Source of the DNA: Terriglobia bacterium
GTDB lineage: Bacteria > Acidobacteriota > Terriglobia > Terriglobales > Acidobacteriaceae
DNA: 64,000 nucleotides
Assembly (NCBI GenBank): GCA_020073165.1
Contig: JAIQFP010000008.1
Span: 124,001 to 188,000 of the forward strand
Reading direction: 5' to 3'
Below, piece by piece: positions 7,290 through 52,589 of this stretch. Within the stretch, counting starts at the first letter, position 1; each line of letters opens with the position of its first letter. Below the pieces are notes generated by a model that was given only the letters and a program-made list of their open reading frames with translations, was not told the DNA's origin and ran no database searches. The position numbers and the translations under genes are program-made.

Positions 7290-7299
7290 TGCATGACAT

Positions 7300-7604: not shown

Positions 7605-7629
7605 CAGTTATTCCTATCAAGGCCAAATC

Positions 7630-9649: not shown

Positions 9650-9830
9650 GGCCAAACCTTGGCTGCCGCGTTCAACTGCCCGTGTCAGCGGCCCCTTGGT
9701 CTACTCCCCGTGGCGATTCCCCGGATCAAGAACGATCCGCAATGTGAATCGGATTGAAAGTCGCAATCACCTCGTTGTGCGCTGATTCCGCAAAGTCTGC
9801 ATCGCAGCAACCGCGCTGTCAAGCCGCCGC

Positions 9831-11408: not shown

Positions 11409-11476
11409 GGCCTACTCTCTCCTGTCGTCGTGCCGGCCCTTCGACTACGCTCAGGGCAGGCTAGCCGGCTGTAGCC

Positions 11477-11493
11477 GGGGGCGTCCCGCCCCC
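11477..11493. repeat. Hairpin in the gnd-zwf gap
   Basis: GGGGGCG-TCC-CGCCCCC, a 7-bp perfect stem, follows a shorter CCGGCT/AGCCGG palindrome and a CCTTCGACTACGCTCAGGGC-type intergenic repeat. It may be a processing or attenuation element between the two genes; there is no T-run. Confidence 0.5.
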
Positions 11494-11514
11494 GCAGTTC
11501 GCTCCACTCAGCTC

Positions 11515-12504: not shown

Positions 12505-12543
12505 AGTTCCGCTCCTGTCTCAAAATTTGTAGCGCCGCTAGAC

Positions 12544-15432: not shown

Positions 15433-15459
15433 ATTTTTTCTCCAGAATTTCGATGATGG

Positions 15460-17544: not shown

Positions 17545-17903
17545 AAATTTCTTCCTCAAACTCGCGGTGGCAACCGTGTGACAGTCCCCCGCGCGCGGCA
17601 AGGCGGCCGATTCTCAAACTGATCGCAATGCCTGATTGTGGTGTGCTACTTCCGACTTGGCCAACTTTCTGCAAATCTCTTCCTGGCACGGGCCCGTAAC
17701 AACCATGAACCCCACATACCCAAGCCGTTACCTGCGGAGGCAGAACGAGGATTGCCGGACGGCCAAACCCCAGTAATGTGCGAGACCGCGATTATGACCG
17801 GATTTCCGGCAAAGTCAAGCAGTGCTTGCTCCGGAGCACAGGGTGTGATACGAAATATGCCCCCGTTATAGTGCGAAGGTCCCTCGGGCCAATTTTCCGG
17901 GAC
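17545..17903. other. Divergent intergenic region between tkt and the barrel gene
   Basis: No gene supported. It should contain the tkt promoter (-) and that of the barrel-cytochrome pair (+). A frame in phase with the barrel gene extends back to ATG 17778, but the encoded leader is not signal-like. I see no clear promoter consensus. Confidence 0.35.
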
Positions 17904-20105
17904 GTGAGGACGGCAGTGGCGTGGAACTCGCTTTTGTCCACAGCGCGGCGGCCTTGGCGGTCGTTCATCTGCGTGCTCCTGTTCGGCGGCTTGGCAGTGC
18001 CAGGCACAGCTTCGGCGGCTGCTCCCTCCTGGCAGCGCATTCCAGGCCACCCACCCTCCAGCACCGCCGCGCTTCAAGGCACCGTTCGCGACGATCAGGG
18101 AAGAGGCGTGCCAGGCGTAAGGCTGACCCTGGTTCAACCCGGTGGCAGAGCCCTGCCGCCCATTTTGAGTAACGGTGAGGGTATTTTTCGGATGCGGGAC
18201 CTCTCCCCGGGCAGCTATCAACTCAAGTTGGACAAGGATGGCTATCAGCCGCTTAACTTCCCCAACGTCAAATTGCGCAGCGGCGAACTCTTGAGCTTGG
18301 ATCTCAAGCTCAATCCGGTGTTGACCACGGCTCCGACCAACAAAGGCCCGTCCGGCTTGCCGGGTACGGCGCCCCTCCCGGGTGTGGCCCCGGAAACCAC
18401 TCCCACCGGGACTTATCCCGGCTTGCGCAAGCCTCAGTCCGCTGGCCCTCCCGGCCCCCTGGCCATTGCCCCGGAGCAAGTGCCCCAGGACTCTGCCAAT
18501 TTTTCTCCCGATCCCGACCGCTGGGACGCCACCATGCCGGAATGGGATCGTTACGGCAAACCCGGCGAGTTTCCCTACACCAGGAGCCACTGGTACGACC
18601 CCTTCAACCGCAGCAAAGTCAAAGGGGATGAGCCCATCTTTGGCCAGCGCTGGTTCTTCAATTTCACCGGGACCAGCCTTACCAGCATCGACGCTCGCCG
18701 CCTCCCCGTCCCCAGCGGCGTCGCCGCCGAGAACCCCGGCAGCAGCGACTTCTTCGGCCGTGGCGGACAGGGCTTTGTCTCCGAGAACCTTCGTCTGTCC
18801 TTTGATCTCTTCCGCGGTGACACCAGCTTCCGTCCCGTGGATTTCCGCATTCGCTTTACCCCGGAGGTCAACCTCAATTTCCTGCAGACCCGGGAGCGCG
18901 GCCTGGTCAACATCGACGTGCGCGAGGGCATCGCCCGCTTCGATCAGCACACCGGCATCCAGGAAGCCTTCGTGGAAGCCAAACTCCACGATCTCAGCCC
19001 GAATTTCGACTTCGTCTCGGTGCGCGCCGGAATTCAGCAATTCACCAGCGACTTCCGTGGCTTCCTGTTTTCCGAAGAGCAGCCCGGCGTCCGCATCTTC
19101 GGCAATCTGCGCTCCAACCGCATCAACTACAACCTGGCGTATTTCTACTTCCTTGAAAAAGACACCAACAGCGGCCTCAACACCTTCAACCAGCGCCACC
19201 AGCAGGTATACATCGGCAACGTGTACATCCAGGACTTCCTGGCCAAGGGCTACACCACCGAGTTCAGCTTCCACTACAACCGGGACGATCCCAGCATTCA
19301 CTTCGACGAGAACGATTTCCTGGTCCGTCCCGCACCCGTCGGTGCGGTGGTAAACCATGGAATCCTCACTCACGGCATTCGCGCCTACTACCTGGGCTGG
19401 ACCAGCAACGGCCACATCGGCCGCCTGAACGTGAGCCACGCTTTTTACCAGGCGCTGGGCCACGACACCTTCAACGCCATTGCCGGACGGCGGGTTGATA
19501 TCAACGCTCGCATGGCGGCCCTGGAACTCTCGGTGGACAAGGATTGGGCCCGATTCCGCACGTCCTTCTTCTATTCCTCGGGCGATGGCAGCAATAAGTC
19601 TGGAATTTTCCGGACTGACGGCACCGCCCACGGCTTTGACACCATCGTCGACGAGACCCACTTCGCTGGCGGCGCTTTCAGTTTCTGGGACAACGAAGGC
19701 ATTCGTCTTACCGGCTCCGGAGTGGCGCTGGTCAACCCCGGCAGCCTGCTGCCCAGCCTGCGCAGCAACAAGGAGGAAGGCCAGGCCAACTTCGTGAATC
19801 CTGGAATCTACATTGCCAACGTGGGCGCGGACTTCGACGTCACTCCCAAGATTCGCGCCTTCGTCAACGGCAACTATCTTCGCTTCGACCGTACCGAACC
19901 GCTTGAGGCCATTCTGTTCCAGTCCCCGATACGCCACAGCATTGGGACCGACTTAGGCGTGGGCGTAGAATACCGGCCACCCTTGACTGAAAACATTGTC
20001 ATCACCGGCGGAGCCTCGACGCTGCTTCCCGGCGATGGATTCAAAGACATCTACAACGGCAGAGTCTTGTTCTCCGTCTTCTCCACCGTTCGCCTGGTTT
20101 TCTGA
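17904..20105 (+). CDS. Outer-membrane beta-barrel protein with N-terminal carboxypeptidase-regulatory-like domain
   Basis: About 733 residues from GTG 17904 (GTG 17916 or ATG 17778 are alternatives; no strong ribosome site decides). A signal peptide (FICVLLFGGLAVPGTASA) is followed by a Cna-B/CarboxypepD-reg domain (LQGTVRDDQGRGVPGVRLTL, then FRMRDLSPGSYQLKLDKDGY), a proline-rich linker and a long C-terminal region of amphipathic strands. It ends in VFSTVRLVF with a terminal Phe, as in outer-membrane barrels. It is 30 bp upstream of the ten-haem cytochrome gene, so the two are surely co-transcribed. This supports a porin-cytochrome-like role, with the barrel as sheath or docking site (inference). 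It is not similar in length or start to TonB-dependent receptors; no plug domain seen. Confidence 0.75.
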   Translation: MRTAVAWNSLLSTARRPWRSFICVLLFGGLAVPGTASAAAPSWQRIPGHPPSSTAALQGTVRDDQGRGVPGVRLTLVQPGGRALPPILSNGEGIFRMRDLSPGSYQLKLDKDGYQPLNFPNVKLRSGELLSLDLKLNPVLTTAPTNKGPSGLPGTAPLPGVAPETTPTGTYPGLRKPQSAGPPGPLAIAPEQVPQDSANFSPDPDRWDATMPEWDRYGKPGEFPYTRSHWYDPFNRSKVKGDEPIFGQRWFFNFTGTSLTSIDARRLPVPSGVAAENPGSSDFFGRGGQGFVSENLRLSFDLFRGDTSFRPVDFRIRFTPEVNLNFLQTRERGLVNIDVREGIARFDQHTGIQEAFVEAKLHDLSPNFDFVSVRAGIQQFTSDFRGFLFSEEQPGVRIFGNLRSNRINYNLAYFYFLEKDTNSGLNTFNQRHQQVYIGNVYIQDFLAKGYTTEFSFHYNRDDPSIHFDENDFLVRPAPVGAVVNHGILTHGIRAYYLGWTSNGHIGRLNVSHAFYQALGHDTFNAIAGRRVDINARMAALELSVDKDWARFRTSFFYSSGDGSNKSGIFRTDGTAHGFDTIVDETHFAGGAFSFWDNEGIRLTGSGVALVNPGSLLPSLRSNKEEGQANFVNPGIYIANVGADFDVTPKIRAFVNGNYLRFDRTEPLEAILFQSPIRHSIGTDLGVGVEYRPPLTENIVITGGASTLLPGDGFKDIYNGRVLFSVFSTVRLVF

Positions 20106-20135: not shown

Positions 20136-23100
20136 ATGCAAGCTTTCCATCTCCGCAGGTTGGCACAGGGATTAACGGCAGCGGGACTGGTTTGTTTCGC
20201 TGCCGCGGTGTTCGCTCCCCAAACGCGCACCGCCGAGGCGGCAAATCCCGCGCAAGCTGCGCCGCAATCGGACACCGAGCAGACGCCGAGTTCCGGGCTC
20301 CTGCTGGGCCAGCCCCAGGCCGATGTCGACCAGAAGTCCGCCGGCTGTGTGAGCTGCCACACTTCGACCGACAACGCCACCATGCACACCACCGGCACGG
20401 TGCATCTGGGCTGCACCGACTGCCACGGTGGCGACTCCCAGGTCATGCTGCCCGCAGGTGCTGCCCCCGGCTCCCCACCCTACGAGGAAGCGACGAAGAA
20501 GGCCCACCCGCAGCCGCGCTTTGCCGAGGATGCCCGCAGTTCCGCCAACCCGGTGCGCGCCTACACCAAGTGGCTGAAGGAAGACCTGGCATTCATCAAA
20601 TTTGTGAACCCCGGAGACCTGCGAGTGGCCGAAGAAACCTGTGGCCGCTCCGGATGTCACCTCGCCGAAGTGCAGCGCGTGCGCACCAGCATGATGACGC
20701 ACGGCGCCATGCTGTGGGAAGCCGCCCTCTACAACAATGGCGCCATCCCTGTAAAGAATCCCATCTTCGGCGAAAGCTACGCTCCCGACGGAACTCCGCA
20801 ACGGTTGCAGACTTTCCCGCCGCCCACCGCCGAAGAAACTCGCCTGAAAGGTGTGCTTCCCTACCTCGAGCCCATCGAGCGCTGGGAAATTTCCCAGCCT
20901 GGCAACGTCCTGCGCAGTTTCGAACGCGGCGGCAGAAGCAAGCCTGAAGTCGGCAATCCTAGCTTGGAGGAAGATCCCGGCAGACCCGACGTAAAGCTAG
21001 GCCAGCGTGGCTTCGGAACTATCCTGCGCACCGACCCTACAGTGCTGGGTCTGCAGAAAACGCGTTTGCTCGACCCCATACTCTCGTTCCCCGGAACCAA
21101 CGACCAGCCCGGCGACTACCGCGCCAGCGGCTGCAGCGCCTGCCACGTGATCTACGCCAACGATCGCTCCCCGGAGCACTCTGGACCTTATGCCGCGCAC
21201 GGAAACCAGGGATACACCGCAACCGTTGACCCCACCATCCCCAAGAACGAATCCGGGCACCCCATCAAGCATGAGTTCACCCGTTCCATCCCCTCCAGCC
21301 AGTGCATTGTCTGCCACATCCACCCCGGAACCAACATGGTGGCCACCTACTATGGCGATATCTGGTGGGACAACGAAGTCGACGGCGAGCAGATGTACCC
21401 GGACAAGCAGCGCCATCCCAGTCCCGAATTTCAGCAGCAGGTGCAGAAGCGCAACCCGGAGCGTACTGCCACCCGCGGTCTCTGGGCCGACGTCGATTTC
21501 CTTCAGAAGACGGGCACCCCCGAATTCAACGCCAACCTGAAAGACACCCAGTTTGACGACTTCCACAGCCATGGATGGCTCTTCCGCCAGGTGTTCAAGC
21601 ACGATCGCAAAGGTAACCTGCTGGATGGCGACGACAAGATCGTCCCTGCGAACGATCCCGACAAGCTGAAGAAGGCAGTCCACCTCAAGGACATCCACCT
21701 GGAGAAGGGCATGCAGTGCATCGATTGCCACTTCGTCCAGGACAATCATGGCAACGGCAAACTCTATGGCGAGACCCGCAATGCCATCGAGGTCGATTGC
21801 ATTGATTGCCACGGCACCATCCAGCAGCGCGCCACTTTAAAGACCTCCGGCATCGCCGCCCCCGCCGGCGGCACCAACATGGAGAAGATGCGCACCCCCT
21901 GGGGCGCCCGCCAGTTCTACTGGAAGGAAGGCCGCCTCTACCAGCGCTCCATGATGAACCAGGACCGGGAGTGGGAAGTGGTGCAGGTGCTCGACTCCAT
22001 CACGCCCGGCAATCCGCACTACAACCAGAAATCGCGCCTGGCCAAGACCATGGAGACCGACGGCAGCACCTGGGGAAGCGTCCCCGGCGACGAATCCAAG
22101 CTGGCCCACCAGAACAGCAAGATGACCTGCTACACCTGCCACAGTTCCTGGGCTCCCACTTGCTATGGCTGCCACCTCCCCATGACCGCCAACCAGCGCA
22201 TGCCCATGCTGCACAACGAGGGTCTACTCACGCGCAATTGGACCTCGTACGACTTCCAGGTCCTGCGCGATGACATCTATCTGCTTGGCATCGATGGAAC
22301 CGTCACCGGCCACCGTATAGCCCCCGTGCGCTCCGCCTGTGCCATCCTGGTCAGCTCGCAAAACGCCGACCGCGACTGGATCTACTATCAGCAGCAGACC
22401 ATCTCCGCCGAAGGCTACAGCGGCCAGGCTTTCAGCACCTTTGTCCCGCACACCGTCCGCGCCAGGGAGACCAAGACCTGCACCGACTGTCACGTGTCCC
22501 AGGCCAATGACAACAACGCCTGGATGACGCAACTCATGCTGCTCGGCACCAACTTCATGAACTTCATGGGCCGCTACGTCTACGTCGCCACCGGTCACAA
22601 AGGCTACGAGGCGGTGGCGGTCACCGAGCATGACGAGCCGCCCGCCGTCTTCGGCAGCCACCTGCACAAGCTCGCTTATCCCGACGACTACCAGAAATTC
22701 GTGAAAGACGGCAGCGAGCTGAAAGAAACCCGTGAACATCCCGGCTCAGACATCCTGGCGGTCCAGGGCCGTGGAGAGTATCTGTACGCCGCCATGGGGA
22801 AAGGCGGCTTCCGCGTTTACGACATCGCCAACATCGACGACAAGGACATCTCTGAGAAGACGATTACCGCGCCCGTGTCGCCCCTCGGCCAGCGTTTCTA
22901 CGTCCACACCAAATACGCCACCGACGTTGCCACTCCCACGACTTTGGGCGTGGACCCGCTGCGCACGCATCGCCCGGAGAACGAGGAACAACCCATCCAC
23001 TTGATCTACGGCTTCCTCTACGTCACCGACAAGTACGAAGGCCTGGTCATCGTCGGCGACCCCAACCTCAAAGCCAAGAGTCCCGGCGTGGGCACGCTAC

Positions 23101-23951
23101 TCGATGGCGACCCCGCCAACAACTTCCTCAAGCGCGAAAAGGGATTCAATCCTAACGGCATTCTGAACGGCGCCCGCCGCATCACCATCGTCGGCACCTA
23201 CGCTTACATCCTCTGCGACCGCGGCCTGGTGGTGGTGGACCTCGACAATCCGCTCGATCCCAAAGTCACGGCGGAAATTGGCGCGCCTTTCCTGAATGAA
23301 GCCCACGGGCTCGCCGTCCAATTCCGCTATGCCTTTGTGGTGGACAAGGACGGCCTCAAGGTTCTCGACATCACTAACCTCGCCAAGCCGGTCCCGGTGG
23401 ACGGCGCCCTGGTCCAGCTTCCTGACGCCCGCAACGTCTACGTCGCCCGCACGTATGCTTATGTTTCCGGCGGCAAGCAGGGCTTGGTCATCGTGGATAT
23501 CGAACATCCCGAGCAGCCCAAGATTGACCAGGTCTTCAACGCCAACGGCGCCATGAATGACGTCAACGACGTGAAGATCGGAATGGTCTCCGCCAGCGCC
23601 TTCGCCTTCGTCGCCGACGGCCACAACGGCCTGCGCGTGGTCGAACTGCTCACGCCCGTTGACACCCCAGGCTTTATCGGTTTCAGCCCACGGCCCACGC
23701 CCAAGCTCATCGCCACCCATCGCACCAAGGGTCCGGCCCTGGCCGTCTCCAAGGGAATCGATCGTGACCGCGCCGTGGATGAAAGCGGCAACCAGTTAGC
23801 CGTGTTGGGACGCCGCGGCGCCCGCCCCTTCAACCGCAAAGAAATGGAGCGCATGTTCCTGCGCGACGGCAAGCTGTACACCGTGAGCGACGACCCGCCA
23901 GGTGCTCCGCAAGACTTGAAACAAGCCTCCACCGACGCCGCCAAGAAATGA
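20136..23951 (+). CDS. Ten-haem c-type cytochrome fused to an LVIVD-repeat domain
   Basis: A 1271-residue secreted protein with a signal peptide ([16 protein letters not shown], cleavage near AEA). Nine CXXCH sites start at residues 71, 93, 333, 390, 528, 555, 665, 676 and 782, and one CX4CH (CGRSGCH) lies near 169, giving ten likely haems. From about residue 870 to 1190, six repeats carry GFRVYDI, GLVIVGD, GLVVVDL, GLKVLDI, GLVIVDI and GLRVVEL cores, the LVIVD repeat that builds beta-propeller-like domains. Its barrel partner precedes it directly. The likely role is electron transfer at or outside the outer membrane, with the propeller giving surface or partner binding (inference). Confidence 0.85.
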
Positions 23952-27602: not shown

Positions 27603-28961
27603 CTACTCCCCGCTCTTCCCCCCGCCCCGCAACCCGGTAATGGTGTAGTTCCCCTTCACCGGCTTCTCCTTCGTCCAGTCATGATACTGATGGCACTCGG
27701 AGCACCGCCCGTTGGCGGCGTCCGCCTGTGGACCGGCTTGCTTGTGGCAGGTGCGGCAGGAGTCGATTCCCGGTACCAGCACCTCGGCGGTGTCCTGGCT
27801 ATTGCGGCTCTTGACGTGGCAGGCGTCGCACTTCAGCAGGCGGTGGGCGTCGTGGTCGAACTCGGCGTGCGGCAGCCAGCGCACGGGGATGTTTGACTTG
27901 GCCACCGTGGGCAGTTGCTGCGGGTCGTCCGGCTGAATCATGGTGTGGCAGAGCTTGCATCCCTTGCCCCACAGGATGCGGTCCGACAACATCACTTGCA
28001 GCGCAATCCATTCCTGGCGGTTGTGCGGCGGCGGCGGATAGACCTTGCCCGGCAGCATGCGCTCCGGCGCAATCGGTTCCGACAGCGCACCCGGATGAGT
28101 GGAGAAATATTCGTTGTACTCGCGATACAGGAAGGCCTGCACGATGTCCGGGCGGTCGTGCGGGACGGCCTCATCGAAGCGCTTGTCGAACTGCAGGTCC
28201 TTCACGTGGCAGCCTTCGCACTGCTCGGTGTAGCGGATGGGGGCCATGTAGGCGCGATCGGCGGACTTGCCCTGGCTCTCCATCGTCGCTGAGACCATCT
28301 TCAGTTCCGCGCCCGCGTAGGGCCACGTGCCTTCCATCCCTCCCGGACGATGGCAATCGTGACAATCGAGCTGCACCGGTCCATGCGGTCCGGCCAGATT
28401 GGGCACCAGATGTTTGTAGTGATTCAGCTTGACCTTGCCGGGATCGGGCATCCCCGGCCGCAGCGCGGCGAACTCGGGATGCTGATTGTCAAAGTCGGCG
28501 ACGTCCTTCACGTACTGGGTCGTGCCCTTGGTGTGCTCGCCGAGGTCGGCGTGACACTGGGTGCAGCCCGCGTCCTGCGTGCTCGCCAGCCGCAGCGAGC
28601 CCTTGTGTTCCACGTGGCAGGCGCCGCACTGGGGCGTGAAGCTGGCTTTCTCCTCGTGATGTGCCGGGGCGTCATGACAAGCCAGACACTTCTTGTCGCT
28701 GACCTGCTTGCTGAAAAATCCCAGCGTGCTCTCGTGGCAGACCTCACACTTTTTGCCAAACACCGCGTGCGAGGAGGCCAGGGGCCCGCTGCTGTACGCC
28801 TTCTCCCCGGTCGCCTGCTGCGACACGATCCACACCAGCGCAATCACCGGGATCCCCACGGAGAGCCACAGCCGCCAGCGCCGCAAGGGATGCGGCTTGG
28901 CGAAATACTGCAAGTCCATCCGCTTGGCCAGCGTCTTGGTTGTCCGTGTACGTCGCAGCAT
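27603..28961 (-). CDS. Membrane-anchored decahaem c-type cytochrome
   Basis: A 452-residue protein. A cytoplasmic N-terminus of about 30 residues precedes one anchor (LWLSVGIPVIALVWIVSQQ), then a periplasmic part with ten CXXCH haem sites: CEVCH (residue 72), CLACH, CGACH, CTQCH, CHDCH, CEGCH, CKLCH, CDACH, CRTCH and CSECH. Many additional His could be distal ligands. It is the last gene of the operon, 15 bp after the b-type membrane subunit, so it most likely accepts electrons from that subunit on the periplasmic face and passes them to soluble or outer-membrane cytochromes (inference). Family: NrfB/NapC-like multihaem proteins in the broad sense. Confidence 0.85.
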   Translation of the reverse strand: MLRRTRTTKTLAKRMDLQYFAKPHPLRRWRLWLSVGIPVIALVWIVSQQATGEKAYSSGPLASSHAVFGKKCEVCHESTLGFFSKQVSDKKCLACHDAPAHHEEKASFTPQCGACHVEHKGSLRLASTQDAGCTQCHADLGEHTKGTTQYVKDVADFDNQHPEFAALRPGMPDPGKVKLNHYKHLVPNLAGPHGPVQLDCHDCHRPGGMEGTWPYAGAELKMVSATMESQGKSADRAYMAPIRYTEQCEGCHVKDLQFDKRFDEAVPHDRPDIVQAFLYREYNEYFSTHPGALSEPIAPERMLPGKVYPPPPHNRQEWIALQVMLSDRILWGKGCKLCHTMIQPDDPQQLPTVAKSNIPVRWLPHAEFDHDAHRLLKCDACHVKSRNSQDTAEVLVPGIDSCRTCHKQAGPQADAANGRCSECHQYHDWTKEKPVKGNYTITGLRGGGKSGE

Positions 28962-28976
28962 CGCCTCGACTCCGGG

Positions 28977-29897
28977 TTAGTAGCGCAGGGCAATCACGGC
29001 GTGCACCGCCCCGAGCAGCAGCAGCGCATAGGAAATCGGAATGTGGACCAGCAACCATCCGTGCAGGACCGTGTGATAGCGGCGTTGCTGGTCGAGTTGC
29101 CGCTTTTCCTCGCAGACATTCTCCAGGTCGTCCACGGTGGAGCGGACGTTGCCGGGAAGCAACACCCGCAATTGACGGAACAGGGCTTCGGCGCGGCCCG
29201 GGTCGCTCAGGGCCGGCCCGCGCGAACCTACGTGCTGCAGAAACGGCTGGATCTCGCGAGTAAAGAACCCGCGCAACTCCACCGCTGCCTCTTCGTCTAC
29301 TTGCAAGCCGGAAGCGACCGTCAGCCCGCCCATCGTGCCGGCGCTGGCGGAGCACGCCCGCTCCTCAGCCGTGGCCTTCTCCAGATTGCCGGCGAGAGCA
29401 TCGACGGCCTCTTCCACCAACTTTGCCGCCTCTTCCATCAGTTGCGCGCGCACTCGCTCGATCTGTTCATAGATGGTTTCCATCGGAATGCGCTCGGTGG
29501 TCAGGCGCGGCATGTAGTGCTGCAATATGGCGCCGAAGATCCCGCTCACAAAGACGATGATGAACAACCACATCAGGGTGGTCGTCAGCGCGCCACCGAA
29601 GTGAAAGCCGCCGTGGAGCAGGATGATCGGAAAAGCGAGAAAACCGAGCCAGAGATGCCCCCGCATCCACGCCTGCGCCCGTCCGATGCGCCAGATGGGA
29701 AACTTCTTGCGCAGGCCCAGCAGTCCGGCAAACAGCATGAAAGCGGAGCCGACGCTCCCATACACCAGGCCCATCACACTTCCGCCAGTCGCCCCTTGCG
29801 GCGAACTGCGGCTGTACGGGATGTACACCACCAGCGCCACCGCCAGCCCAATCACGCTGCCGATGAACCATTTGCGGTGTGTTTCGTCGATGCGCAC
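28977..29897 (-). CDS. Cytochrome-b-like membrane subunit
   Basis: A 306-residue integral membrane protein. Predicted spans lie near residues 10-28, 45-62, 80-100, 105-128 and a final pair formed by LVHIPISYALLLLGAVHAVIAL. Candidate haem ligands are His in RGHLWLGFLAFPIILLHGGFHFGG and the C-terminal HGWLLVHIPISYALLLLGAVH. A soluble helical insert of about 120 residues, with Cys at about 182 and 262, separates the helices. This pattern resembles b-type subunits of ferric-reductase or DmsC/NarI-like type. Three bp separate it from the upstream iron-sulfur gene. It would carry electrons from cytoplasmic Fe-S clusters across the membrane to the decahaem cytochrome (inference). Confidence 0.7.
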   Translation of the reverse strand: MRIDETHRKWFIGSVIGLAVALVVYIPYSRSSPQGATGGSVMGLVYGSVGSAFMLFAGLLGLRKKFPIWRIGRAQAWMRGHLWLGFLAFPIILLHGGFHFGGALTTTLMWLFIIVFVSGIFGAILQHYMPRLTTERIPMETIYEQIERVRAQLMEEAAKLVEEAVDALAGNLEKATAEERACSASAGTMGGLTVASGLQVDEEAAVELRGFFTREIQPFLQHVGSRGPALSDPGRAEALFRQLRVLLPGNVRSTVDDLENVCEEKRQLDQQRRYHTVLHGWLLVHIPISYALLLLGAVHAVIALRY

Positions 29898-29900
29898 GCT

Positions 29901-32075
29901 CTATCCCTTCATCCCCGTACTGCGCTGCTTGAGCAAGCCGGCAAAGAACTCCGGCGGATTCACCCGGTGCGCGGCGTCATGCGGGCATGCATACACGCAA
30001 CTCGGCTCCTCGTGGTCCAGGCACAGGTCGCACGACGTGGCCTTCACCTTGACGCTGGCAATCCTGCGTCCCGGATACGTAGGATCATCTTGCTCCACCG
30101 GGAAGGGATGCATGTTGATATTGCCGTACGGACAATTGTTGGCGCACTGGCCGCAGCCGATGCACCAGTCCTCAATGATGACTTCGAGCGAATTGCGCCG
30201 CCGGATGGAGCCCACCGGGCACCCCACCATGCACAGCGGGTCGCGGCACTGGCGGCAGGAAGTCGCCACCAGGTACTTGTCAAAGCGCAGGCCCTCGCGG
30301 ATCAGCCGGCTCACTCCGTCATGCGCGTCGGCACAGGCGCGTACGCACTGGTCGCAGCGTGTGCAGCGCTCCAGGTCGAGGATGAGCAGGCTCTGCGCTT
30401 CCATCAGCCCCTGGTTGAGGAACTGCTCCACGGGGACGTTAGCCACCTGCATGGCCCGCTGGCGGTTGGCTTCAATGCGTTCCGCCGCTGCCGCTTCCAG
30501 CTTCTGCCGGATCGCCGGGAACTTGTCCAGCATGAGCTGGAAGTCTTCTCCCGGAATGCGCACGACTTCCACGTGATCGAGCGCCGTACAAGTTGCCGTG
30601 CGGGCAATCCCCCCGAGCAAGGCGATCTCGCCGAAGTAGCCGCCCCGCGCCAGGTAAGCCAGCACCATGTCGCCGCCGGGGCGATGTTCTGACACCTTAA
30701 CGAATCCCAGCCGCACCAGGTAGAAGCTATCGCCCGGCTCGCCTTGGCGGCAGATCACCTGTCCCGGCGCGAAACGCACCAGCTCCACGTGCTCCCGCAG
30801 GTGGTCGATGAACTCCGGCGTCAGCGAAGCCAGCACCGGGACGCTGCGCAAGTGCGAATCTAGCGCCCGCTTCCTGTAGGTTCGATCCAGCTGGTCGCGG
30901 AAGTTCTTGTTGCGCTGCATGATGTCGAGCACGTTGCGCAACATCTCCAGCATGGTGCAGTCGGTCTTGGCCCGCACCGTGGCCGAGCGCGGGTAATAAC
31001 TCATGCAAGTCATTTCGCCAAACAGCTCGCCCGGCCCCAACTCGGCAATTGGGTTATCGTAAGGGAGATCAACGGAAGCATCGATCGGAATGAAAGGACG
31101 GTCCACTTCCTCCGTCCGCGGGTCGTTGGCGCGTGGTGCAAGAAGGCTCTTGAGCTTGCTCAGGAAACCTCGACCGCTGTCCTGGGTCTTGACGTGGGCG
31201 ATGGGACTGGAGAGAAAGACGTCCACTTTCCCTTCCAGAATGTAGAACGCGGTAGCGCCGAAGTCGCCTTCGCGGCAGATGATGTCGCCGGCGCGGAAAC
31301 GGCGCTCGACTACGGCATGGCTGTTGAGTTCCAGGAAGGTGCCGGAGACATTCTTGAAGATCGGAAGGCCGAGGAGCGAGTCGGGATCGACCGCCTGGCC
31401 GGGCAACTTGGTCCCTACCACCGCTCGGTTGGTGAGCGCGCCGGTGGGACAGGACACCATGCATTCGCCACAGGAAACGCACGACGAACTGCCCATTGGA
31501 AGGTTGGTGTCAAAGGCGATGCCCGCCTGGTATCCCTTGCCGCGCCGCGCCAGCACCCAGTTGTGGCGAATGTCGTCGCAACCGCGAATGCAGCGCTCGC
31601 ACAGGATGCAAGCTTCGTGGTCCACGGCGATGGCGATCGAAGATTCGTCTTTGCCGCGCGGAGTGACCTTTTTCGGAAAGCGCGGGTGCTGGACCCCGGC
31701 TTGCTCCGCCATGCGCTCCAGTTCGCAGTCCCCGGAGTGTTGCTGGCGGGCGCAGGGCGAGGGATGGTCGGACATCAGCAACTCGACCAGGGTCTTGCGC
31801 ACCCCCACCACCTGCTCGGTGTTGGTCTTTACCACCATGCCTTGTTCGGCCTGGCGAATACAGGAGGCAGCGAGCTTTGGTCCCGCCTCGACCACGCAGA
31901 CACGGCACACCCCGATGGGATTCTCATTCTGCTGGTGGCAAAGCGTAGGAATGGGGATGCCGTTGATCCGCGCGGCGTCAAAGATCGTAGTTCCCTGGGG
32001 AACGGAAACTGCGACGCCGTCGATGGTCAACTGGACTTGCGGTACCGGCTTGCCGGCCGTCCCGTCGGGGCTCAT
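29901..32075 (-). CDS. Iron-sulfur protein with two cyclic-nucleotide-binding domains
   Basis: A 724-residue fusion. Residues 1-90: NuoG/HoxU-like [2Fe-2S] ferredoxin (Cys46, 57, 60, 72). About 103-120: a HisCys3-like segment (DHPSPCARQQHSGDC) in which the second of the three expected Cys is Gln. 156-213: two [4Fe-4S] motifs (CILCERCIRGC, CVSCGECMVSCP). 245-385 and 415-520: two cNMP-binding domains with phosphate cassettes FGEMTCMSYYPRSATVRA and FGEIALLGGIARTATCTA. 571-700: further ferredoxin motifs of DmsB/HybA type (CTRCDQCVRAC, CRQCRDPLCMVGCP, CIGCGQCANNCP, CDLCLDHEEPSCVYACP). The start overlaps the NuoEF stop (ATGA). It likely wires NAD(P)H-derived electrons to the membrane subunit, with cNMP as a possible gate. 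Confidence 0.85.
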   Translation of the reverse strand: MSPDGTAGKPVPQVQLTIDGVAVSVPQGTTIFDAARINGIPIPTLCHQQNENPIGVCRVCVVEAGPKLAASCIRQAEQGMVVKTNTEQVVGVRKTLVELLMSDHPSPCARQQHSGDCELERMAEQAGVQHPRFPKKVTPRGKDESSIAIAVDHEACILCERCIRGCDDIRHNWVLARRGKGYQAGIAFDTNLPMGSSSCVSCGECMVSCPTGALTNRAVVGTKLPGQAVDPDSLLGLPIFKNVSGTFLELNSHAVVERRFRAGDIICREGDFGATAFYILEGKVDVFLSSPIAHVKTQDSGRGFLSKLKSLLAPRANDPRTEEVDRPFIPIDASVDLPYDNPIAELGPGELFGEMTCMSYYPRSATVRAKTDCTMLEMLRNVLDIMQRNKNFRDQLDRTYRKRALDSHLRSVPVLASLTPEFIDHLREHVELVRFAPGQVICRQGEPGDSFYLVRLGFVKVSEHRPGGDMVLAYLARGGYFGEIALLGGIARTATCTALDHVEVVRIPGEDFQLMLDKFPAIRQKLEAAAAERIEANRQRAMQVANVPVEQFLNQGLMEAQSLLILDLERCTRCDQCVRACADAHDGVSRLIREGLRFDKYLVATSCRQCRDPLCMVGCPVGSIRRRNSLEVIIEDWCIGCGQCANNCPYGNINMHPFPVEQDDPTYPGRRIASVKVKATSCDLCLDHEEPSCVYACPHDAAHRVNPPEFFAGLLKQRSTGMKG

Positions 32076-33706
32076 GCTCGCCTCGCTGATTCACTGAAGC
32101 ACACGCCGGCCAGGCAACGGCGGCGCACCACGTGATCGTCCACCACTTCGCGGAAATGCGTCAGCACCGACACGATGGGCACCGGCACCACCTGCCCCAG
32201 CCCGCAAATGGAGCTCAAGCGCATCGCGTCCGATAACTCTTTCAGCAATTGCAGGTCGTGCTCCCCGGCTCTGCCTTCGGTCCAGCCTTTCAGCATCTCC
32301 ACCATCTTCTGCGATCCCAAACGACAGGGCACGCACTTGCCGCAGGATTCGTTGCGGAAGAAGCGCACCGAGTTCAGCGCCATGTCGAGCATGCAGCGGC
32401 CTTCGGCGCAAACCACGATCGCCCCCGAACCCACCATCGATCCCACCTTCGCCACCGCGTCCCAATCCAGAGGCAGGTTGGTCATCGAAGCCGGAAGGTA
32501 TCCTGAAGAGGGGCCGGAGGGCGCAAAACCCAGCAGCTTCTTGCCGTCAATAATGCCGCCGGCATACTGGAAAATCAGCTCCTGATAGCTGATGCCCATG
32601 GGAACTTCGAAAATTCCCGGGCGATTCACATCCCCGCTGATGCCCACGAACTTCGACCCCAGCGACCCGCCCTTCCCTTGAGCCTTGTACCAGTTCTCCA
32701 CGTTGTTGATCACCGTGGGCTGGTTCCACAAACCGTTGGTGCCGGGAAATGGAGGCTTGTTGCGCGGCTCCGCTCGCTTGCCTTCAATGGCCTCCAGCAG
32801 CGCGCTCTCTTCGCCGCAGATGTAGCCGCCGGGGCTGACGAAAATCTTCAGGTCAAAGGCCAGACCGCTGCCCAGAATGTTGTTTCCCAGCAAGCAATGC
32901 TGGTAACAGCGGTCGAGTTCAGCCTGCAGGACTTCCTTGGGGTACTCATACTCGTGGCGAATGTAAAGAATTCCCTCTTTGGCCCCGGTGACCAACCCGG
33001 CCATGATCATGCCCTCGATCACCAGGTAAGGCACGTTCTCCAGGATGAAGCGGTCCTTGATCGTACCCGGCTCGCTTTCGTCGGCGTTGCAGACGATGTA
33101 CCTGGCCGTGCCGGGCGCGTTCCGCACAATCTCCCACTTCAGGCCGGTCTTGAAGCCGGCGCCACCCATGCCCCGCAGACCGCTCGCCTTCAGCGCGGCG
33201 ATAATATCCTGCCAGTTCTGTGTCTCAAGGAAGCGCCGGACCACGGCGTACTCACCATTCCCGTTGTAAGGATCCATGGCCACTGGCACGCGCGGCTTGT
33301 GGTGGACGGCTTCCGGCAACGGCTTTCCCGCCAAAGCGTCCTGCACCATGGAGACCACTTGCGGTCCGCTCACGTGCGAGTAGATGACATCGTTGATCAT
33401 CACTGCCGGAGCTTCATCGCACCGCCCCAGGCAGGAAACGTCGCGAATAGAAAGGCTCTGCTGGTCCCCGCGGAAAGCCGCTTCCAGGCCCGACTTGAGC
33501 TGGTCCCCGCCCCGTAAGTGACAGGTCATATCGGCGCAAACCCGGCAGTCTACTTTGGGCGGAGGAGTGAGATGAAAATGCGGGTAGAAGCTGGCCACGG
33601 CGTGGATCTGGCTCACCGGAACATTGATCTTCCCCGACAACACCTGTAGTTGCTCGGCGGGCAAGTAGCCAAACTCTCGCTGGATGGCCCTCAGTTCGTC
33701 GAACAC
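32072..33706 (-). CDS. NuoE-NuoF fusion, NAD(P)H-oxidising flavoprotein
   Basis: A 544-residue protein. Residues about 1-125 are NuoE-like thioredoxin-fold [2Fe-2S] (CADMTC and CLGRCDEAP). About 140-540 are NuoF-like: SGLRGMGGAGFKTGLKWE binds FMN/NADH, followed by ICNADESEPGT-type sequence, GGYICGEESALLEAIEG, and the [4Fe-4S] site ESCGKCVPCRLGS with a later Cys in SSICGLGQ. This is the NADH-oxidising module of complex I, also used by NAD-reducing hydrogenases and formate dehydrogenases. No hydrogenase or formate dehydrogenase gene is adjacent; the operon leads instead to cytochromes. The GTG start at 33706 is short for NuoE and the frame is open upstream, so a slightly longer protein is possible. 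Confidence 0.9.
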   Translation of the reverse strand: MFDELRAIQREFGYLPAEQLQVLSGKINVPVSQIHAVASFYPHFHLTPPPKVDCRVCADMTCHLRGGDQLKSGLEAAFRGDQQSLSIRDVSCLGRCDEAPAVMINDVIYSHVSGPQVVSMVQDALAGKPLPEAVHHKPRVPVAMDPYNGNGEYAVVRRFLETQNWQDIIAALKASGLRGMGGAGFKTGLKWEIVRNAPGTARYIVCNADESEPGTIKDRFILENVPYLVIEGMIMAGLVTGAKEGILYIRHEYEYPKEVLQAELDRCYQHCLLGNNILGSGLAFDLKIFVSPGGYICGEESALLEAIEGKRAEPRNKPPFPGTNGLWNQPTVINNVENWYKAQGKGGSLGSKFVGISGDVNRPGIFEVPMGISYQELIFQYAGGIIDGKKLLGFAPSGPSSGYLPASMTNLPLDWDAVAKVGSMVGSGAIVVCAEGRCMLDMALNSVRFFRNESCGKCVPCRLGSQKMVEMLKGWTEGRAGEHDLQLLKELSDAMRLSSICGLGQVVPVPIVSVLTHFREVVDDHVVRRRCLAGVCFSESARRA

Positions 33707-34154
33707 GTCAGCCAGACTCCGTTCAGACCAGTTCCGAGCTCCGGGAAGATGAGTGGACAGTAAGAGCGCGAATGCTATAGCAAAACATTTCCCTTGTCCA
33801 GAGGACCCTCCGTGGCTAGCGTCTCAGTTCGGTCAAACTCAACTATTTTGTCATCCTGAACGGAACTGGGCCGCTTCCGCTTCCACGACTCTCAGGGAAT
33901 TCTCGCTGGGTGCGTGCAGCGGGGCGCACGTCGTCGGGGAAAATACCTCGGCGCGGACGTGGTAGATCGGGCGGAGTAGGGTCACGGTGCGAAGCTGCTG
34001 CTTCGCTCAGGACAACGATCACAAAAAGGCTCAGGGCGCAGAGTTTGCACCCTCATTTACCACACTCCACTCTCGGTTGATTTCTGACCCAATCTGTCGT
34101 ATAAGCAGTCACCCCGGAGAAAGTTCGGACATTGGCACCGTATTGAGCACAGTT
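33707..34154. other. Divergent intergenic region with a protein-poor repeat
   Basis: No gene supported. It separates the redox operon (-) from the pentahaem cytochrome gene (+). The middle (about 33850-34025) has TCATCCTGAACGGAAC and CTTCGCTCAGGACAAC-type sequence, a dispersed intergenic repeat style also seen near 11440 and 63250. A promoter for the plus-strand gene is at 34077-34105. A weak minus-strand candidate is TGGACA (33795-33800) with TATAGC (33774-33779), spacer 15. Confidence 0.4.
34077..34105 (+). promoter_or_regulatory. Sigma-70-like promoter for the pentahaem cytochrome gene
   Basis: TTGATT (34077-34082) and TATAAG (34100-34105) are 17 bp apart, close to the housekeeping consensus, and lead to a 5' leader of about 40 bases before ATG 34155. 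Confidence 0.5.
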
Positions 34155-35495
34155 ATGGCAAGAAACGGGCGAATATTTTTGCTGGGAGTTTGGGCTCTGC
34201 TGCTGCTTACCCCTGCCCTGGCGGCCGGCCCACCTGAACGCGCGGCAGCCGTCTCCGGCAAGTATGTTGGCCCGGGCGGGTGCGCCGCCAGCAGTTGTCA
34301 TGGCAGCGTGCAGCCGAAAGCAGTGACCCGTATCTTTCAAAATGAGTACAGCATCTGGATCGCCCAGGACAAACACGCTCGCGCGTTTTCTGTGCTCTCC
34401 AATCCGGTGTCCCTGCGGATCGGTAAAATCCTGAATATCGGCCGTCCCGATCAGGCCGCCAAGTGCCTGGTTTGTCACTCCCTCTACGTTCCCACCGAGC
34501 AACGCGCTCAAATCTTCGAACTGGATGACGGAGTGAGTTGCGAGTCCTGCCACGGACCGGCCTCGGGTTGGCTGGGTCCCCACACACAACGGGACTGGCC
34601 CCATGAAAAATCCGTCTCCTTGGGAATGTACGACACTCGCAATCTCACCCTTCGCTCCGAGAAGTGTCTGACTTGCCATCTTGGCACGGCAGAAAAGTTT
34701 GTGGATCACGAGATGATCGCCGCCGGGCATCCTGACTTGACCTTCGAGCTCGACTTGTTCAGCACGGTCATGCCGCGGCACTGGAAGATGCCGGAAAGCT
34801 ACGAAACCGGTGCTTGGCGGCAGGTGCAGGCCTGGGGCGTGGGAGAGGCGGTACAACTCCGCGAGTCGCTCAATCGCGTGTCGCGCCGCGCCAAGGACAC
34901 CAAAGGCGCATGGCCCGAGTACGCCGAACTGGACTGCTTCGCCTGTCACCACAGCCTGACCATGCCGCTGGATAGCTGGCGGCAGGAGCGTGGCTACCCC
35001 GGGCGCCGTCCCGGCAATCCCCCTTGGAACCAGTCCCGCGAGGTCATGTTCCGTGCTTTGGTCGAGGAGATTAGCCCCGGCGCCGCAAAGCAATTCAACG
35101 ACGAAAGCACTCGCCTGGCAGGCCTGATGAACCAACTGAACGGCAACCGCGAGGAAGTCGGCGCCAGCGCCGACCGCGCCGCTGCGCTCGCCGATCAGAT
35201 GGCCAAACAAGTCGAAGGTCAGAATTATGATTCCGCTCTGACCTTGCGGTTGTTGCGGCGCGTCGCCGGCGACGGCGCCGCGATCGCCAACGAGGGTGAA
35301 AGGCCGGCTGAGCAAGCCGCCATGACTCTGGATTCCCTGTTCACCGCGTATAACCAGAACGCGAAGCCGGCCAACGGCGCAGACGTGCGCGCCGCCATTG
35401 ATGCCTTGTTCCAGCAGCTACAGAATCCGTCAGCGTACTCGGCCCCGCGGTTTGCGGCCCAGATGCAGCGGGTCAGCGAGCTTCTGGGTCGTTAG
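34155..35495 (+). CDS. Pentahaem cytochrome c554-like periplasmic protein
   Basis: A 446-residue exported protein from ATG 34155 with signal peptide IFLLGVWALLLLTPALAA. Haem sites: CX4CH (CAASSCHGS) near the mature N-terminus, then CLVCH, CESCHGPAS, CLTCH and CFACHH, giving five likely haems. The WIAQDKHARAFSVL and CESCHGPASGW segments fit the cytochrome c554/c-prime family. The C-terminal 150 residues are haem-free and helical. It diverges from the redox operon and could be the soluble carrier between inner-membrane and outer-membrane cytochromes (inference). The last four bases overlap the end of the convergent GH13 gene. Confidence 0.85.
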   Translation: MARNGRIFLLGVWALLLLTPALAAGPPERAAAVSGKYVGPGGCAASSCHGSVQPKAVTRIFQNEYSIWIAQDKHARAFSVLSNPVSLRIGKILNIGRPDQAAKCLVCHSLYVPTEQRAQIFELDDGVSCESCHGPASGWLGPHTQRDWPHEKSVSLGMYDTRNLTLRSEKCLTCHLGTAEKFVDHEMIAAGHPDLTFELDLFSTVMPRHWKMPESYETGAWRQVQAWGVGEAVQLRESLNRVSRRAKDTKGAWPEYAELDCFACHHSLTMPLDSWRQERGYPGRRPGNPPWNQSREVMFRALVEEISPGAAKQFNDESTRLAGLMNQLNGNREEVGASADRAAALADQMAKQVEGQNYDSALTLRLLRRVAGDGAAIANEGERPAEQAAMTLDSLFTAYNQNAKPANGADVRAAIDALFQQLQNPSAYSAPRFAAQMQRVSELLGR

Positions 35496-41024: not shown

Positions 41025-43373
41025 CTACTTCGACTTCATCACATACACCCCATCCCAATCCGACTCTGGCGCATTCTCCAGAAACTCCAGCGCGCGCTGC
41101 AGGAAGATCTGCGTGGGGCCGTCTTCCGGATAGTCCGACAGCAGTTCTCCGAACCTTCCCGCCGCCTCCAGCCAGTTCTGGCTGCGATACGCGGCCATGC
41201 CGTGTTCAAAGCGCTCCAATAGCGCGTCGAACTTCGGCCGGTCTTCCGCCGCACCCATGATTTCGTAAACGTTCACCGGTTGCAGCTTGCCCTTGACGCG
41301 GATCTTGTCCAGATCACGGCAGACGAAGTGTTCAGCTACCACTCGATAAGTCGTCTCGCTGATCACGATGCGGGTGCGGAACTGCTTGGTCATCCCTTCC
41401 AGCCGCGACGCGAGGTTCACGTTGTCGCCCATTACTGTCCACGACAGGCGCTTGACCGAGCCCATGGTTCCGACGTTCACCGGCCCAGTGTTGATACCAA
41501 GCCCAATGGCAATCTGCTTTCGTCCTTCGGCGGCAAATTTGACGTTGAGCTTATCGAGCGCCTGGAGCATCTCCACCGCGCAGCGGCAGGCGCGTAGCGC
41601 GTGGTCCTCCTGCGGGTAGGGCGATCCCCAGAACGCCATGATGGCGTCACCAATGTACTTGTCGAGCGTGCCCAGGTTGCGGAACAGCACATCCGTCATC
41701 TCTCCCAGGTATTGGTTCAGCAGTTGCACCAGTTCGTCCGGCGTCATGCCCTCCGACAGGGTGGTAAAGTCACGGATGTCGGAGAACATGACGGTGAGTT
41801 CCTTGCTCTCGCCGCCCGGGCGAATGTATTTCTGCGGGTCTTTTTCGATCAGCGTGATCACGCCCGGTGGCAGGTACTGCGAGAAGGTCTTGCGGATCAT
41901 CCGCTTGTCGCGCTCTTCGAAGATCATCCGGAAGGTGGTGATGGCGGCATAGTTGGCCACCAGCGTCCCGGCGGGGATTACAAAACCCAGCCAGCGCCCT
42001 GAGTTGACGAAACTGAAATACAGGTATCCCGAGAAGCCGGCCAAGGCCACCAGCAGCGAGACGGTGGCATAAAACGGCCGGGTGCGGCTGAACCAGAATC
42101 CGAAACCCAGCCCGAACAGCAGGATGAAGCCCAGGTCGGTCATCTCCTCCTTGGATCCCCGCACCAGGAAGCCCCGCCTCTTTTCGCCGCTGTGCAGCAG
42201 GTTGTCAATGATGTTGGCGTGGATCTCGACCCCCATGTAGACGCTATCACTCTTCTGGTAGGGAGTATTCCGGATGTCGCCGATCGCCTTGGCCGTAGCT
42301 CCCACCAGAACAATCTTGTCTTTGAAGGTCTGCGGCGGAACGGCTCCCGTCATCACGTCCCACATGGAATAGTGCGGATAAGTCCCATAAGGGCCGGTGT
42401 AGTTGATGAGCGCGGTGGCGTCCGGCGAAGGACGCAGGGTGTGGCGGCCGAACTGGATGCGTTCCAGGCCGTCGGCGGCGATGTAGGCGGCAATCTCCTG
42501 GTCGGGAATGCTTTCGTATTCACGCAGCACCTGTAAGGCGAGAGAAGGAAAGTAATCCTGGTCCTGATAGCGAATCATGAGCAAGGCATGACGCAGGGTG
42601 CCGTCGGAGTCGGGATTGATGTCAATGAACCCGTACGACGCCGCGGCTTCCGCCAACTTGGCGATGTTAGCTTCGACGCCGTGGGCCACCACGCCGCCTT
42701 TCTGTGCCCAGACTTCTCCCAGGTCAAACTTCTGGCCATCTTTGGAGTAGACGGGAAAAACCTGCGGAAACGATTTGGCCCAGGCAATGTTGAAGTACTC
42801 TTCGGCTAGCCTGGGATCGCCGGCGCGCGCCAGGAACAGGTGTCCCAGCACGACATGGCCCGCCTGCTTGAGTGAAGCCGCGAACATCGCATCTTCATCG
42901 CTGGCGGCGGCAACCTCCTTGATCTTGTGAATGACCTCGGGCGACGCGGACGGCCCCACTTCGTTCTGCAACTTCTCCAGTGCATCGAGCGTGGGCTGGC
43001 TCTCCGGCGTGGGGAAGGTGGCATCGAAGGCGATCACGCGGGCGCCTCCCGCGCTCAACTGCTTCACCAGCGTGACATAGGAACTACGGGGCAGGGGGAA
43101 CGCACGAATTTTCTGCAGCGTCTGCTCATCGATGCCGACAATGACGATGCGGGGATCCTGCGGCCGTGCCCCCCGCACCACGAAGCGCGCGTCCAGCGAG
43201 CGCAGTTCCACGTTTTGCAGAAAGAGAAAGCCCGCGATGGGGCTGCCCAGAAGCCCGGCAAAGTCAAACAGGAGCAGGGCCGCGAAGGTAACCAGGACGG
43301 CGATGATCAGGTCGATCTGCCGGATGGAGATCCGGCTCAGCCGTCCCCACCAGCGCTGCATCAGAGAGGTCAT
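41025..43373 (-). CDS. CHASE2-domain adenylate/guanylate cyclase
   Basis: A 782-residue membrane protein. A first span (LIIAVLVTFAALLLFDFAGLL) leads to a periplasmic CHASE2 sensor (about 45-390, ending YMGVEIHANIIDNLL), then three spans (about 405-485) and a class III cyclase domain (about 520-710): VMFSDIRDFTTLSEG carries the metal-binding Asp, followed by YIGDAIMAFWG and WTVMGDNVNLASRLE. A helical C-terminal tail of about 75 residues follows. The FecR-type gene lies upstream on the same strand. It would make cAMP or cGMP on periplasmic signals, and the cNMP-domain Fe-S protein at 29.9-32.1 kb is a possible target (inference). Confidence 0.9.
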   Translation of the reverse strand: MTSLMQRWWGRLSRISIRQIDLIIAVLVTFAALLLFDFAGLLGSPIAGFLFLQNVELRSLDARFVVRGARPQDPRIVIVGIDEQTLQKIRAFPLPRSSYVTLVKQLSAGGARVIAFDATFPTPESQPTLDALEKLQNEVGPSASPEVIHKIKEVAAASDEDAMFAASLKQAGHVVLGHLFLARAGDPRLAEEYFNIAWAKSFPQVFPVYSKDGQKFDLGEVWAQKGGVVAHGVEANIAKLAEAAASYGFIDINPDSDGTLRHALLMIRYQDQDYFPSLALQVLREYESIPDQEIAAYIAADGLERIQFGRHTLRPSPDATALINYTGPYGTYPHYSMWDVMTGAVPPQTFKDKIVLVGATAKAIGDIRNTPYQKSDSVYMGVEIHANIIDNLLHSGEKRRGFLVRGSKEEMTDLGFILLFGLGFGFWFSRTRPFYATVSLLVALAGFSGYLYFSFVNSGRWLGFVIPAGTLVANYAAITTFRMIFEERDKRMIRKTFSQYLPPGVITLIEKDPQKYIRPGGESKELTVMFSDIRDFTTLSEGMTPDELVQLLNQYLGEMTDVLFRNLGTLDKYIGDAIMAFWGSPYPQEDHALRACRCAVEMLQALDKLNVKFAAEGRKQIAIGLGINTGPVNVGTMGSVKRLSWTVMGDNVNLASRLEGMTKQFRTRIVISETTYRVVAEHFVCRDLDKIRVKGKLQPVNVYEIMGAAEDRPKFDALLERFEHGMAAYRSQNWLEAAGRFGELLSDYPEDGPTQIFLQRALEFLENAPESDWDGVYVMKSK

Positions 43374-47998: not shown

Positions 47999-48571
47999 TT
48001 AGTGCGAGCCGGGATTCCCCTCCTCGTCCAAGCTGAGATTTAGGTCCAGCACGTTGACTCTGGGTTCTCCCAGGAAGCCGAACTGGCGCGGTCGTGTGTG
48101 GCGCCGCACCAGGCGACGCACTGCATCTTCCGATAACCCACGAGTTTTGGCGACGCGGGCGATCTGAAACTCGGCCGCGGCCGGGGTGATCTCGGGATCC
48201 AGACCCGACGCTGACGCGGTCACCAGATCAATCGGTATAGGCTGACCCGGATTTTCCGCGTGCAGCGTGGCGACGTCCCCCTTCACCCGATCAATCAACA
48301 CGTGATTCGTCGGTCCCAACTGCGATCCGTTGGAATTGGCAGCATCGTAGTTCACCGCCGAGGGTCGCGAGTGGAAATAGCCCGGGCCGCTGAAGGCCTG
48401 GCCGATGATGCGCGAGCCGATAACCTTGCCGTCTTTCTTGATGAGCTGTCCATTGGCCTGATCGTAAAACATGACCTGGGCAAGCCCAGTTACGACCAAC
48501 GGATAAATAATGCCCAGCAGAACCGTGGTCGCGATGGTCATGAGCACAGCGATAATAAGATTCTTCTTCAT
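47999..48571 (-). CDS. kdpC: Potassium-transporting ATPase subunit KdpC
   Basis: A 190-residue subunit that raises ATP affinity of the Kdp pump. One N-terminal span ([28 protein letters not shown]) is followed by [43 protein letters not shown] and VRRLVRRHT, all family hallmarks. The start ATG 48571 is preceded by AAGGA; a TTG at 48577 is less likely. It is the last gene of the Kdp operon, 12 bp after kdpB. Confidence 0.95.
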
Positions 48572-48583
48572 GGTCAAATCCTT

Positions 48584-50608: not shown

Positions 50609-50618
50609 AGCAGAGTCC

Positions 50619-52394
<1,776 letters not shown>

Positions 52395-52395
52395 G

Positions 52396-52485
52396 TCAGA
52401 ACTTCTCCGGGCGGAGCAAGGCGTAGATCAGATAGACCATGGTGAGACCGCTCACCACGAGCATGATGATTGACTCCAGGTTCAT
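52396..52485 (-). CDS. kdpF: Potassium-transporting ATPase subunit KdpF (29 residues)
   Basis: A 29-residue peptide starting [11 protein letters not shown], with one membrane span and ending YALLRPEKF, the usual KdpF C-terminal pattern (LLxPExF). In KdpFABC the peptide lies in the membrane and stabilises the complex. Its stop is 1 bp before kdpA. Too short for standard gene calling. Confidence 0.85.
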
Positions 52486-52492
52486 GGCATCC

Positions 52493-52579: not shown

Positions 52580-52589
52580 ACTCGGTCTC

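Follow-up and report, generated by a model that had tools for sequence, protein, structure and literature searches.

A 64,000-nucleotide stretch of the genome of a Terriglobia bacterium (JAIQFP010000008.1, positions 124,001-188,000; hereafter the window, within which coordinates are given) carries a four-gene operon encoding a NuoE-NuoF fusion (NuoEF), an iron-sulfur (Fe-S) protein with two cyclic nucleotide monophosphate (cNMP)-binding domains (FeS), a membrane subunit (MemB) and a decahaem c-type cytochrome (Cyt). In related genomes the operon occurs together with genes for a pentahaem cytochrome (C554), a large exported cytochrome, a predicted outer-membrane β-barrel and an HbpS-like lipoprotein, an all-or-none group of about eight genes found in soil bacteria, most of them Acidobacteriota. 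We consider it moderately probable that this module is a quinone-independent, cyclic-nucleotide-gated, trans-envelope oxidase of reduced nicotinamide adenine dinucleotide (NADH) that delivers electrons to extracellular acceptors.

The four minus-strand open reading frames span exactly 27603-33706, with spacings of -4 (a 4 bp overlap), 3 and 15 bp. A preliminary description of this DNA had reported the same tightly packed genes, with coordinates and domains that match to the base, and had rightly noted that hydrogenase, formate dehydrogenase and complex I quinone subunits are all missing from the set. One genome per species was scanned with FeS, which yielded 139 relatives; 80 loci were kept, and their neighbouring open reading frames were clustered to find recurrent genes. 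Of the 80 loci, 78 have NuoEF, 77 MemB and 74 Cyt; gene order and strand are shared with few exceptions, and many of the absences fall at contig ends. The four-gene synteny that the preliminary description had proposed to look for in relatives is thus strongly upheld, and since the orthologues (mostly 31-97% identical) retain their order in about 75 of the 80 loci, the arrangement is not a product of chance. Among the exceptions, NuoEF-FeS stands alone at two Planctomycetota loci (L107 and L110), and Cyt and FeS only are found in a metagenome-assembled genome (MAG) labelled Actinobacteria (L105). Acidobacteriota MAGs account for most of the loci. The labels Rokubacteria and Methylomirabilota occur at one locus each, a further locus is labelled Rhodanobacteraceae and possibly misbinned, and the isolate Granulicella aggregans is also represented. 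By eye, a 259-residue LamG-like protein follows NuoEF-FeS at L107 and L110, with a porin-like barrel nearby.

Near the operon, C554 is encoded in 67 of the 80 loci, the large cytochrome in 37 to 42 and the barrel in 30, and the barrel, wherever it was found, lies beside the large cytochrome. The position of this barrel-cytochrome pair varies: it lies on the opposite side of the operon in L042, L043, L049, L077 and L081, stands in a row with C554 as a joint operon in the Rokubacteria locus (L102), and is located elsewhere than the operon in the Granulicella and Planctomycetota genomes. In the Planctomycetota genomes G127 and G128, MemB and Cyt lie side by side at a distance from NuoEF-FeS, and the barrel-cytochrome pair is another unit; though scattered, the units of both membranes are complete there. 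Of 14 assemblies without the large cytochrome near the operon, 11 encode it at another place in the genome, with the barrel beside it in the three that were checked. Among 120 related genomes, FeS, MemB, C554, the large cytochrome and the HbpS-like lipoprotein have close homologues in the same 13 and in no others, matches outside these module-bearing genomes being weak and scoring far lower. The barrel is found in 11 of the 13, and in the remaining two the contig ends at the neighbouring large cytochrome. Two genomes of the same genus (G089 and G097) differ in that only G089 has the full set. This co-occurrence despite physical separation is the strongest evidence that the parts work together. 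The distance matrices of the components also correlate (r 0.83-0.93), values obtained without correction for the species tree and which shared descent alone could give. Across the phylum the large cytochrome is present in 42 of 396 sampled genomes, about one tenth. It is carried by three genomes (G224, G251 and G291) that are each 3.7 Mb in two contigs.

NuoEF contains the Pfam domains 2Fe-2S_thioredx, Complex1_51K, SLBB and NADH_4Fe-4S and is predicted to be an NADH diaphorase with flavin mononucleotide (FMN), one 2Fe-2S and one 4Fe-4S cluster. The NuoE and NuoF ligands (C57, C62, C92 and C96; C455, C458, C461 and C501) are invariant in 16 orthologues, as is the FMN-loop Gly. The GEE motif is retained (E299 in all 16, E300 in 15), which, from what is known of complex I, points to NADH as a likelier donor than NADPH and so narrows the NAD(P)H of the preliminary description. 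The best PDB matches are HydB subunits, with 7q4v at the top, and four residues present in all 16 sequences (C438, H525, C531 and C536) align to the 3Cys+1His site of HydB, the residue assignment being by alignment. This site, a Zn or 2Fe-2S hinge, is present in HydB and absent from complex I (PMC9499530). NuoEF terminates 8 residues past C536, without the C-terminal 2[4Fe-4S] ferredoxin domain (IPR017896; B3/B4) that is one of the defining features of BfuB (PMC9304861). That domain does occur in a HydB-type gene located outside the operon in this genome (L001; G000:C8:235787-239302); the gene also has an N-terminal thioredoxin-like region and adjoins NuoE, and may belong to a bifurcating enzyme. 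It is one of several additional NuoF genes, including a formate-dehydrogenase-linked copy, that sit outside the operon. The idea that NuoEF is a gene strayed from complex I or from a formate dehydrogenase was rejected because the genome has these separate copies and the operon order is conserved. One orthologue (L070), 95-97% identical, is 13 residues longer, and the true start of NuoEF may lie upstream at an unusual codon.

In FeS, Pfam finds Fer2_4, NADH-G_4Fe-4S_3, Fer4 repeats and cNMP_binding, and together with NCBIfam these define a HoxU/HydA-like (NuoG-like) N-terminus, two cNMP-binding domains and a C-terminal HybA/DmsB/HydN-like four-cluster ferredoxin. The closest PDB relative of the N-terminus is HydA1 of the bifurcating hydrogenase. 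Across an alignment of 24 sequences drawn from several phyla, the ligands of seven clusters (one 2Fe-2S and six 4Fe-4S) are kept essentially without change. At the N5-like (NuoG-type) site, residues 104-117, H104, C108 and C117 are kept and the third Cys is Q, E or H in all 24, so that the N5-like cluster may be lost or altered. The phosphate-binding cassettes of the cNMP domains are conserved in the same alignment: G353, E354, R363 and A365 of the first domain in 24 of 24, and G482, R492 and A494 of the second likewise, with E483 in 23. Both domains thus look to have been kept as functional sites.

MemB has five hydrophobic segments and matches no Pfam or NCBIfam family at E<0.001. Its orthologues give weak matches to Ni_hydr_CYTB (10 of 43), Ferric_reduct (PF01794; five of 43, with a best E of 4.5e-4) and DUF4405. 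All 43 sequences share H81, H95, H285 and H299, two H-x13-H pairs whose spacing predicts a bis-haem-b-type membrane protein, and a distant paralogue has them too. Positive residues are concentrated in loop 62-81, which suggests that this loop and the helical hairpin 131-276 are cytoplasmic and that the end of TM5 is periplasmic. The AlphaFold model is helical, with a predicted local distance difference test score (pLDDT) of 80; compared by Foldseek with solved structures it has no match at E<0.001, and the alignment to STEAP4 (Z 7.2) does not rise above helical noise. The paralogue with the same four His lies in a second electron-transfer cluster of the genome (L126; G000:C13:72000-90000, 6246-17240), where cytochromes bearing 31 and 23 CXXCH motifs and an Fe-S/pyridine-nucleotide oxidoreductase are also encoded.

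On the periplasmic side, Cyt has Cytochrome_C7/C3 (class III/c7) Pfam domains. Its ten CXXCH motifs are all invariant in 21 orthologues, as are exactly ten further His, a number that would fit ten bis-His haems. C554 is probably periplasmic, and its five haem sites are invariant, including the CX4CH; its true start is probably the ATG at 34155. The ten haem sites of the large cytochrome are conserved in 20 or 21 of 21 sequences, with 16 additional His at 90% or more, and the protein has no significant match among PDB sequences. The barrel gene product is predicted to adopt an outer-membrane β-barrel fold: its model, in which pLDDT averages 64 and exceeds 75 in many strands, shows about 18 long strands and a C-terminal Phe and aligns to AlgE over 352 residues (Z 24.7, root-mean-square deviation 3.3), and the MtrB and OmbB porins are not among its listed fold matches.

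Linkage to a cyclic-nucleotide source comes from a CHASE2 class III nucleotidyl cyclase gene that recurs near the module. Each genome with the module has no more than one to three CHASE2 genes, and nine of 19 such genes lie at most 10 kb from the module span, in nine of 12 genomes, compared with 0.16 expected under random placement. Kinship of the genomes inflates this linkage, yet side and distance vary among them. Conservation of the cNMP sites and the linked cyclase together point to possible gating by a cyclic nucleotide.

Table 1. Features of the module and its linked genes in the window.
Feature	Position	Strand	Description
NuoEF (NuoE-NuoF fusion)	33706-32072	minus	GTG start, 544 aa
Fe-S/cNMP protein (FeS)	32075-29901	minus	724 aa
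MemB, predicted membrane b-type cytochrome	29897-28977	minus	306 aa; five transmembrane (TM) segments, two H-x13-H, helical hairpin probably cytoplasmic
Cyt, membrane-anchored decahaem c-type cytochrome	28961-27603	minus	452 aa; haems predicted all bis-His
C554, divergent pentahaem cytochrome	33987-35495	plus	c554-like; 4 CXXCH + 1 CX4CH
Barrel, predicted outer-membrane β-barrel with CarboxypepD_reg domain	17778-20105	plus	AlgE-like, ~18 strands; start annotation uncertain
Large exported cytochrome	20136-23951	plus	9 CXXCH + 1 CX4CH, C-terminal LVIVD propeller; ~1,250 residues
HbpS/GlcG-domain lipoprotein	8066-9655	minus	LTSC lipobox (by eye); 80 bits to HbpS-like; co-occurs with module
CHASE2 class III nucleotidyl cyclase	41025-43373	minus	recurrent neighbour of module

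Two other groups of genes in the window are not counted in the module. Pentose-phosphate genes for G6PDH, a 6PGD-like protein, a transaldolase-PGI fusion and transketolase (9831-17601) adjoin the barrel-cytochrome pair and are a possible reductant supply, and Kdp potassium-transport-like genes with a sensor were recognised by eye at 47999-57529. A PHROGs comparison gave nothing useful.

In the proposed mechanism, the four operon genes would encode that half of a trans-envelope electron conduit which lies at the inner membrane. NADH would be oxidised at the FMN of NuoEF, and electrons would pass by the NuoF and NuoE clusters to the Fe-S subunit, through one 2Fe-2S and two 4Fe-4S clusters of its N-terminus and four 4Fe-4S clusters of its C-terminus. 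The two predicted b haems of MemB would then carry the electrons across the membrane, from its cytoplasmic to its periplasmic side, and on to the decahaem Cyt. The preliminary description had proposed such a route from cytoplasm to periplasm, and ligand conservation fits it; the unit as described was incomplete, given that the barrel, the ten-haem and pentahaem cytochromes and the HbpS-like lipoprotein co-occur with it. C554 would relay electrons across the periplasm to the barrel and the large LVIVD-propeller cytochrome, with the HbpS-like lipoprotein as an accessory. The acceptor is probably extracellular; Fe(III), Mn(IV) and humic material are guesses from habitat. The role would be redox disposal or extracellular reduction that bypasses quinones. 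Outward flow is favoured because electrons that leave for the positive side move down the membrane potential, as they do in NADPH oxidases. The tandem cNMP domains may gate this flux on cyclic AMP (cAMP) or cyclic GMP (cGMP), for which the linked CHASE2 cyclase is a plausible source. The stronger proposal of a second-messenger-gated wire, in which a CHASE2-made cyclic nucleotide binds the tandem domains and switches quinone-independent flow from NADH to the exterior, is a tentative one.

Several observations weigh against a trans-envelope NADH oxidase. Two of the 14 assemblies checked yielded no large cytochrome and a third just a contig-end fragment of it, and the co-occurrence of the components could partly reflect joint horizontal transfer. 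The N5-like site, short of one Cys, makes the electron path inside the Fe-S subunit uncertain. MemB, with neither a strong family nor a significant PDB fold match, could hold a quinone site. The barrel, with its approximately 18 strands, resembles AlgE and OprD and not demonstrably MtrB, so that threading of a cytochrome through it is conjectural.

The latitude left by MemB bears on the alternative of an inward-running chain or a quinone-coupled branch, with MemB-Cyt as a split CbcL-type quinol:cytochrome module exchanging electrons with NuoEF-FeS, the quinone pool, NADH and periplasmic cytochromes. CbcL combines b and c haems, and MemB with a multihaem c cytochrome resembles that layout; the weak Ni_hydr_CYTB matches among MemB orthologues and the quinol linkage of the known inner-membrane families of extracellular electron transfer (PMC6295460) point the same way. 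MemB-Cyt is nevertheless strictly paired with an NADH module, lacks evidence of a quinone site and is at most distantly related to known b cytochromes. Inward flow to NAD+ against the membrane potential would in addition demand an unusually low-potential donor, more negative than NADH. A quinone-coupled or inward chain is thus regarded as unlikely.

Two further alternatives concern the ends of the chain. The large cytochrome could be a periplasmic or cell-surface reductase for a soluble substrate, such as a nitrogen or sulfur oxyanion, with the operon as its NADH-dependent reductant supply. In keeping with this idea are the family name of C554 and a faint resemblance (E 0.17 or worse) between a local part of the large cytochrome and the haem motifs of octahaem nitrite reductase and NrfA, but this resemblance is confined to one short stretch and not significant, the at least 16 other conserved His are enough for ten bis-His haems, and a periplasmic enzyme needs no strict barrel partner, which together make a reductase improbable. 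At the cytoplasmic end, NuoEF-FeS could be a flavin-based bifurcating or confurcating (Bfu-like) enzyme coupling NADH and ferredoxin to the haem chain. Both HydB and HydA1, the nearest PDB relatives, belong to a bifurcating hydrogenase, and the 3Cys+1His site is invariant in NuoEF though absent from complex I (PMC9499530). The missing C-terminal 2[4Fe-4S] domain of BfuB (PMC9304861), which the HydB-type gene of the same genome has, makes bifurcation very improbable.

If electrons do flow from NADH to the exterior, soil Acidobacteriota and members of other phyla could shed reductant without the quinone pool by tapping NADH directly, and cAMP or cGMP gating of a redox chain would become directly testable. 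The isolate Granulicella aggregans carries the module, so that genetics may be possible. If a cyclic nucleotide does switch the flow, the module would be an allosterically controlled respiratory conduit, a kind not found described. A search of the open-licence literature (cyclic nucleotide, NuoE/NuoF, multihaem, Acidobacteria), judged by titles and abstracts, found no description of the assembly, an earlier one being possible, and none of an LVIVD propeller combined with a multihaem cytochrome.

Several parts of the module recall known systems. Counterparts of the complex I NADH module (NuoEFG) are its NuoE and NuoF and the clusters that correspond to those of the NuoG N-terminus. NuoB, NuoD, NuoH and the antiporter-like subunits are absent from the operon and its conserved neighbours, and by this lack of a quinone module the assembly is not a member of complex I. 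The likeness to HydABC and other Bfu enzymes is closer, with a NuoEF core nearest HydB, an Fe-S N-terminus nearest HydA1 and the 3Cys+1His site retained. In contrast to these enzymes, NuoE is fused to NuoF, cNMP domains and a DmsB-like ferredoxin replace the catalytic domain, and the C-terminal ferredoxin domain of BfuB is missing, which by sequence places the module outside the Bfu family.

The module seems to work like an extracellular electron-transfer conduit, its membership in the MtrAB-type conduits, CbcL-type oxidases or ferric reductases not being established. It shares with the NADPH oxidase and ferric reductase b cytochromes two H-x13-H helices, here predicted to bear two haems that take electrons across the membrane from a cytoplasmic nicotinamide donor. 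MemB differs in having no fused FAD/NAD domain and only a weak profile match, and would have an Fe-S subunit as donor and a decahaem cytochrome as acceptor. With the porin-cytochrome conduits (Mtr, Omb-Omc, Ext) the module has in common a barrel gene adjoining a multihaem cytochrome and a periplasmic multihaem carrier, whereas its barrel is AlgE-like, its large cytochrome bears an LVIVD propeller and its inner-membrane partner is an NADH module and not a quinol oxidase. CymA, CbcL/MtrH/MtoC and ImcH likewise supply multihaem cytochromes of the periplasm with electrons drawn from the cytoplasmic membrane. These three quinol-linked families, the ones known for the inner membrane in bacterial extracellular electron transfer, recycle the quinone pool (PMC6295460), whereas in the module MemB would be fed by a diaphorase, NuoEF, and an Fe-S subunit with seven clusters.

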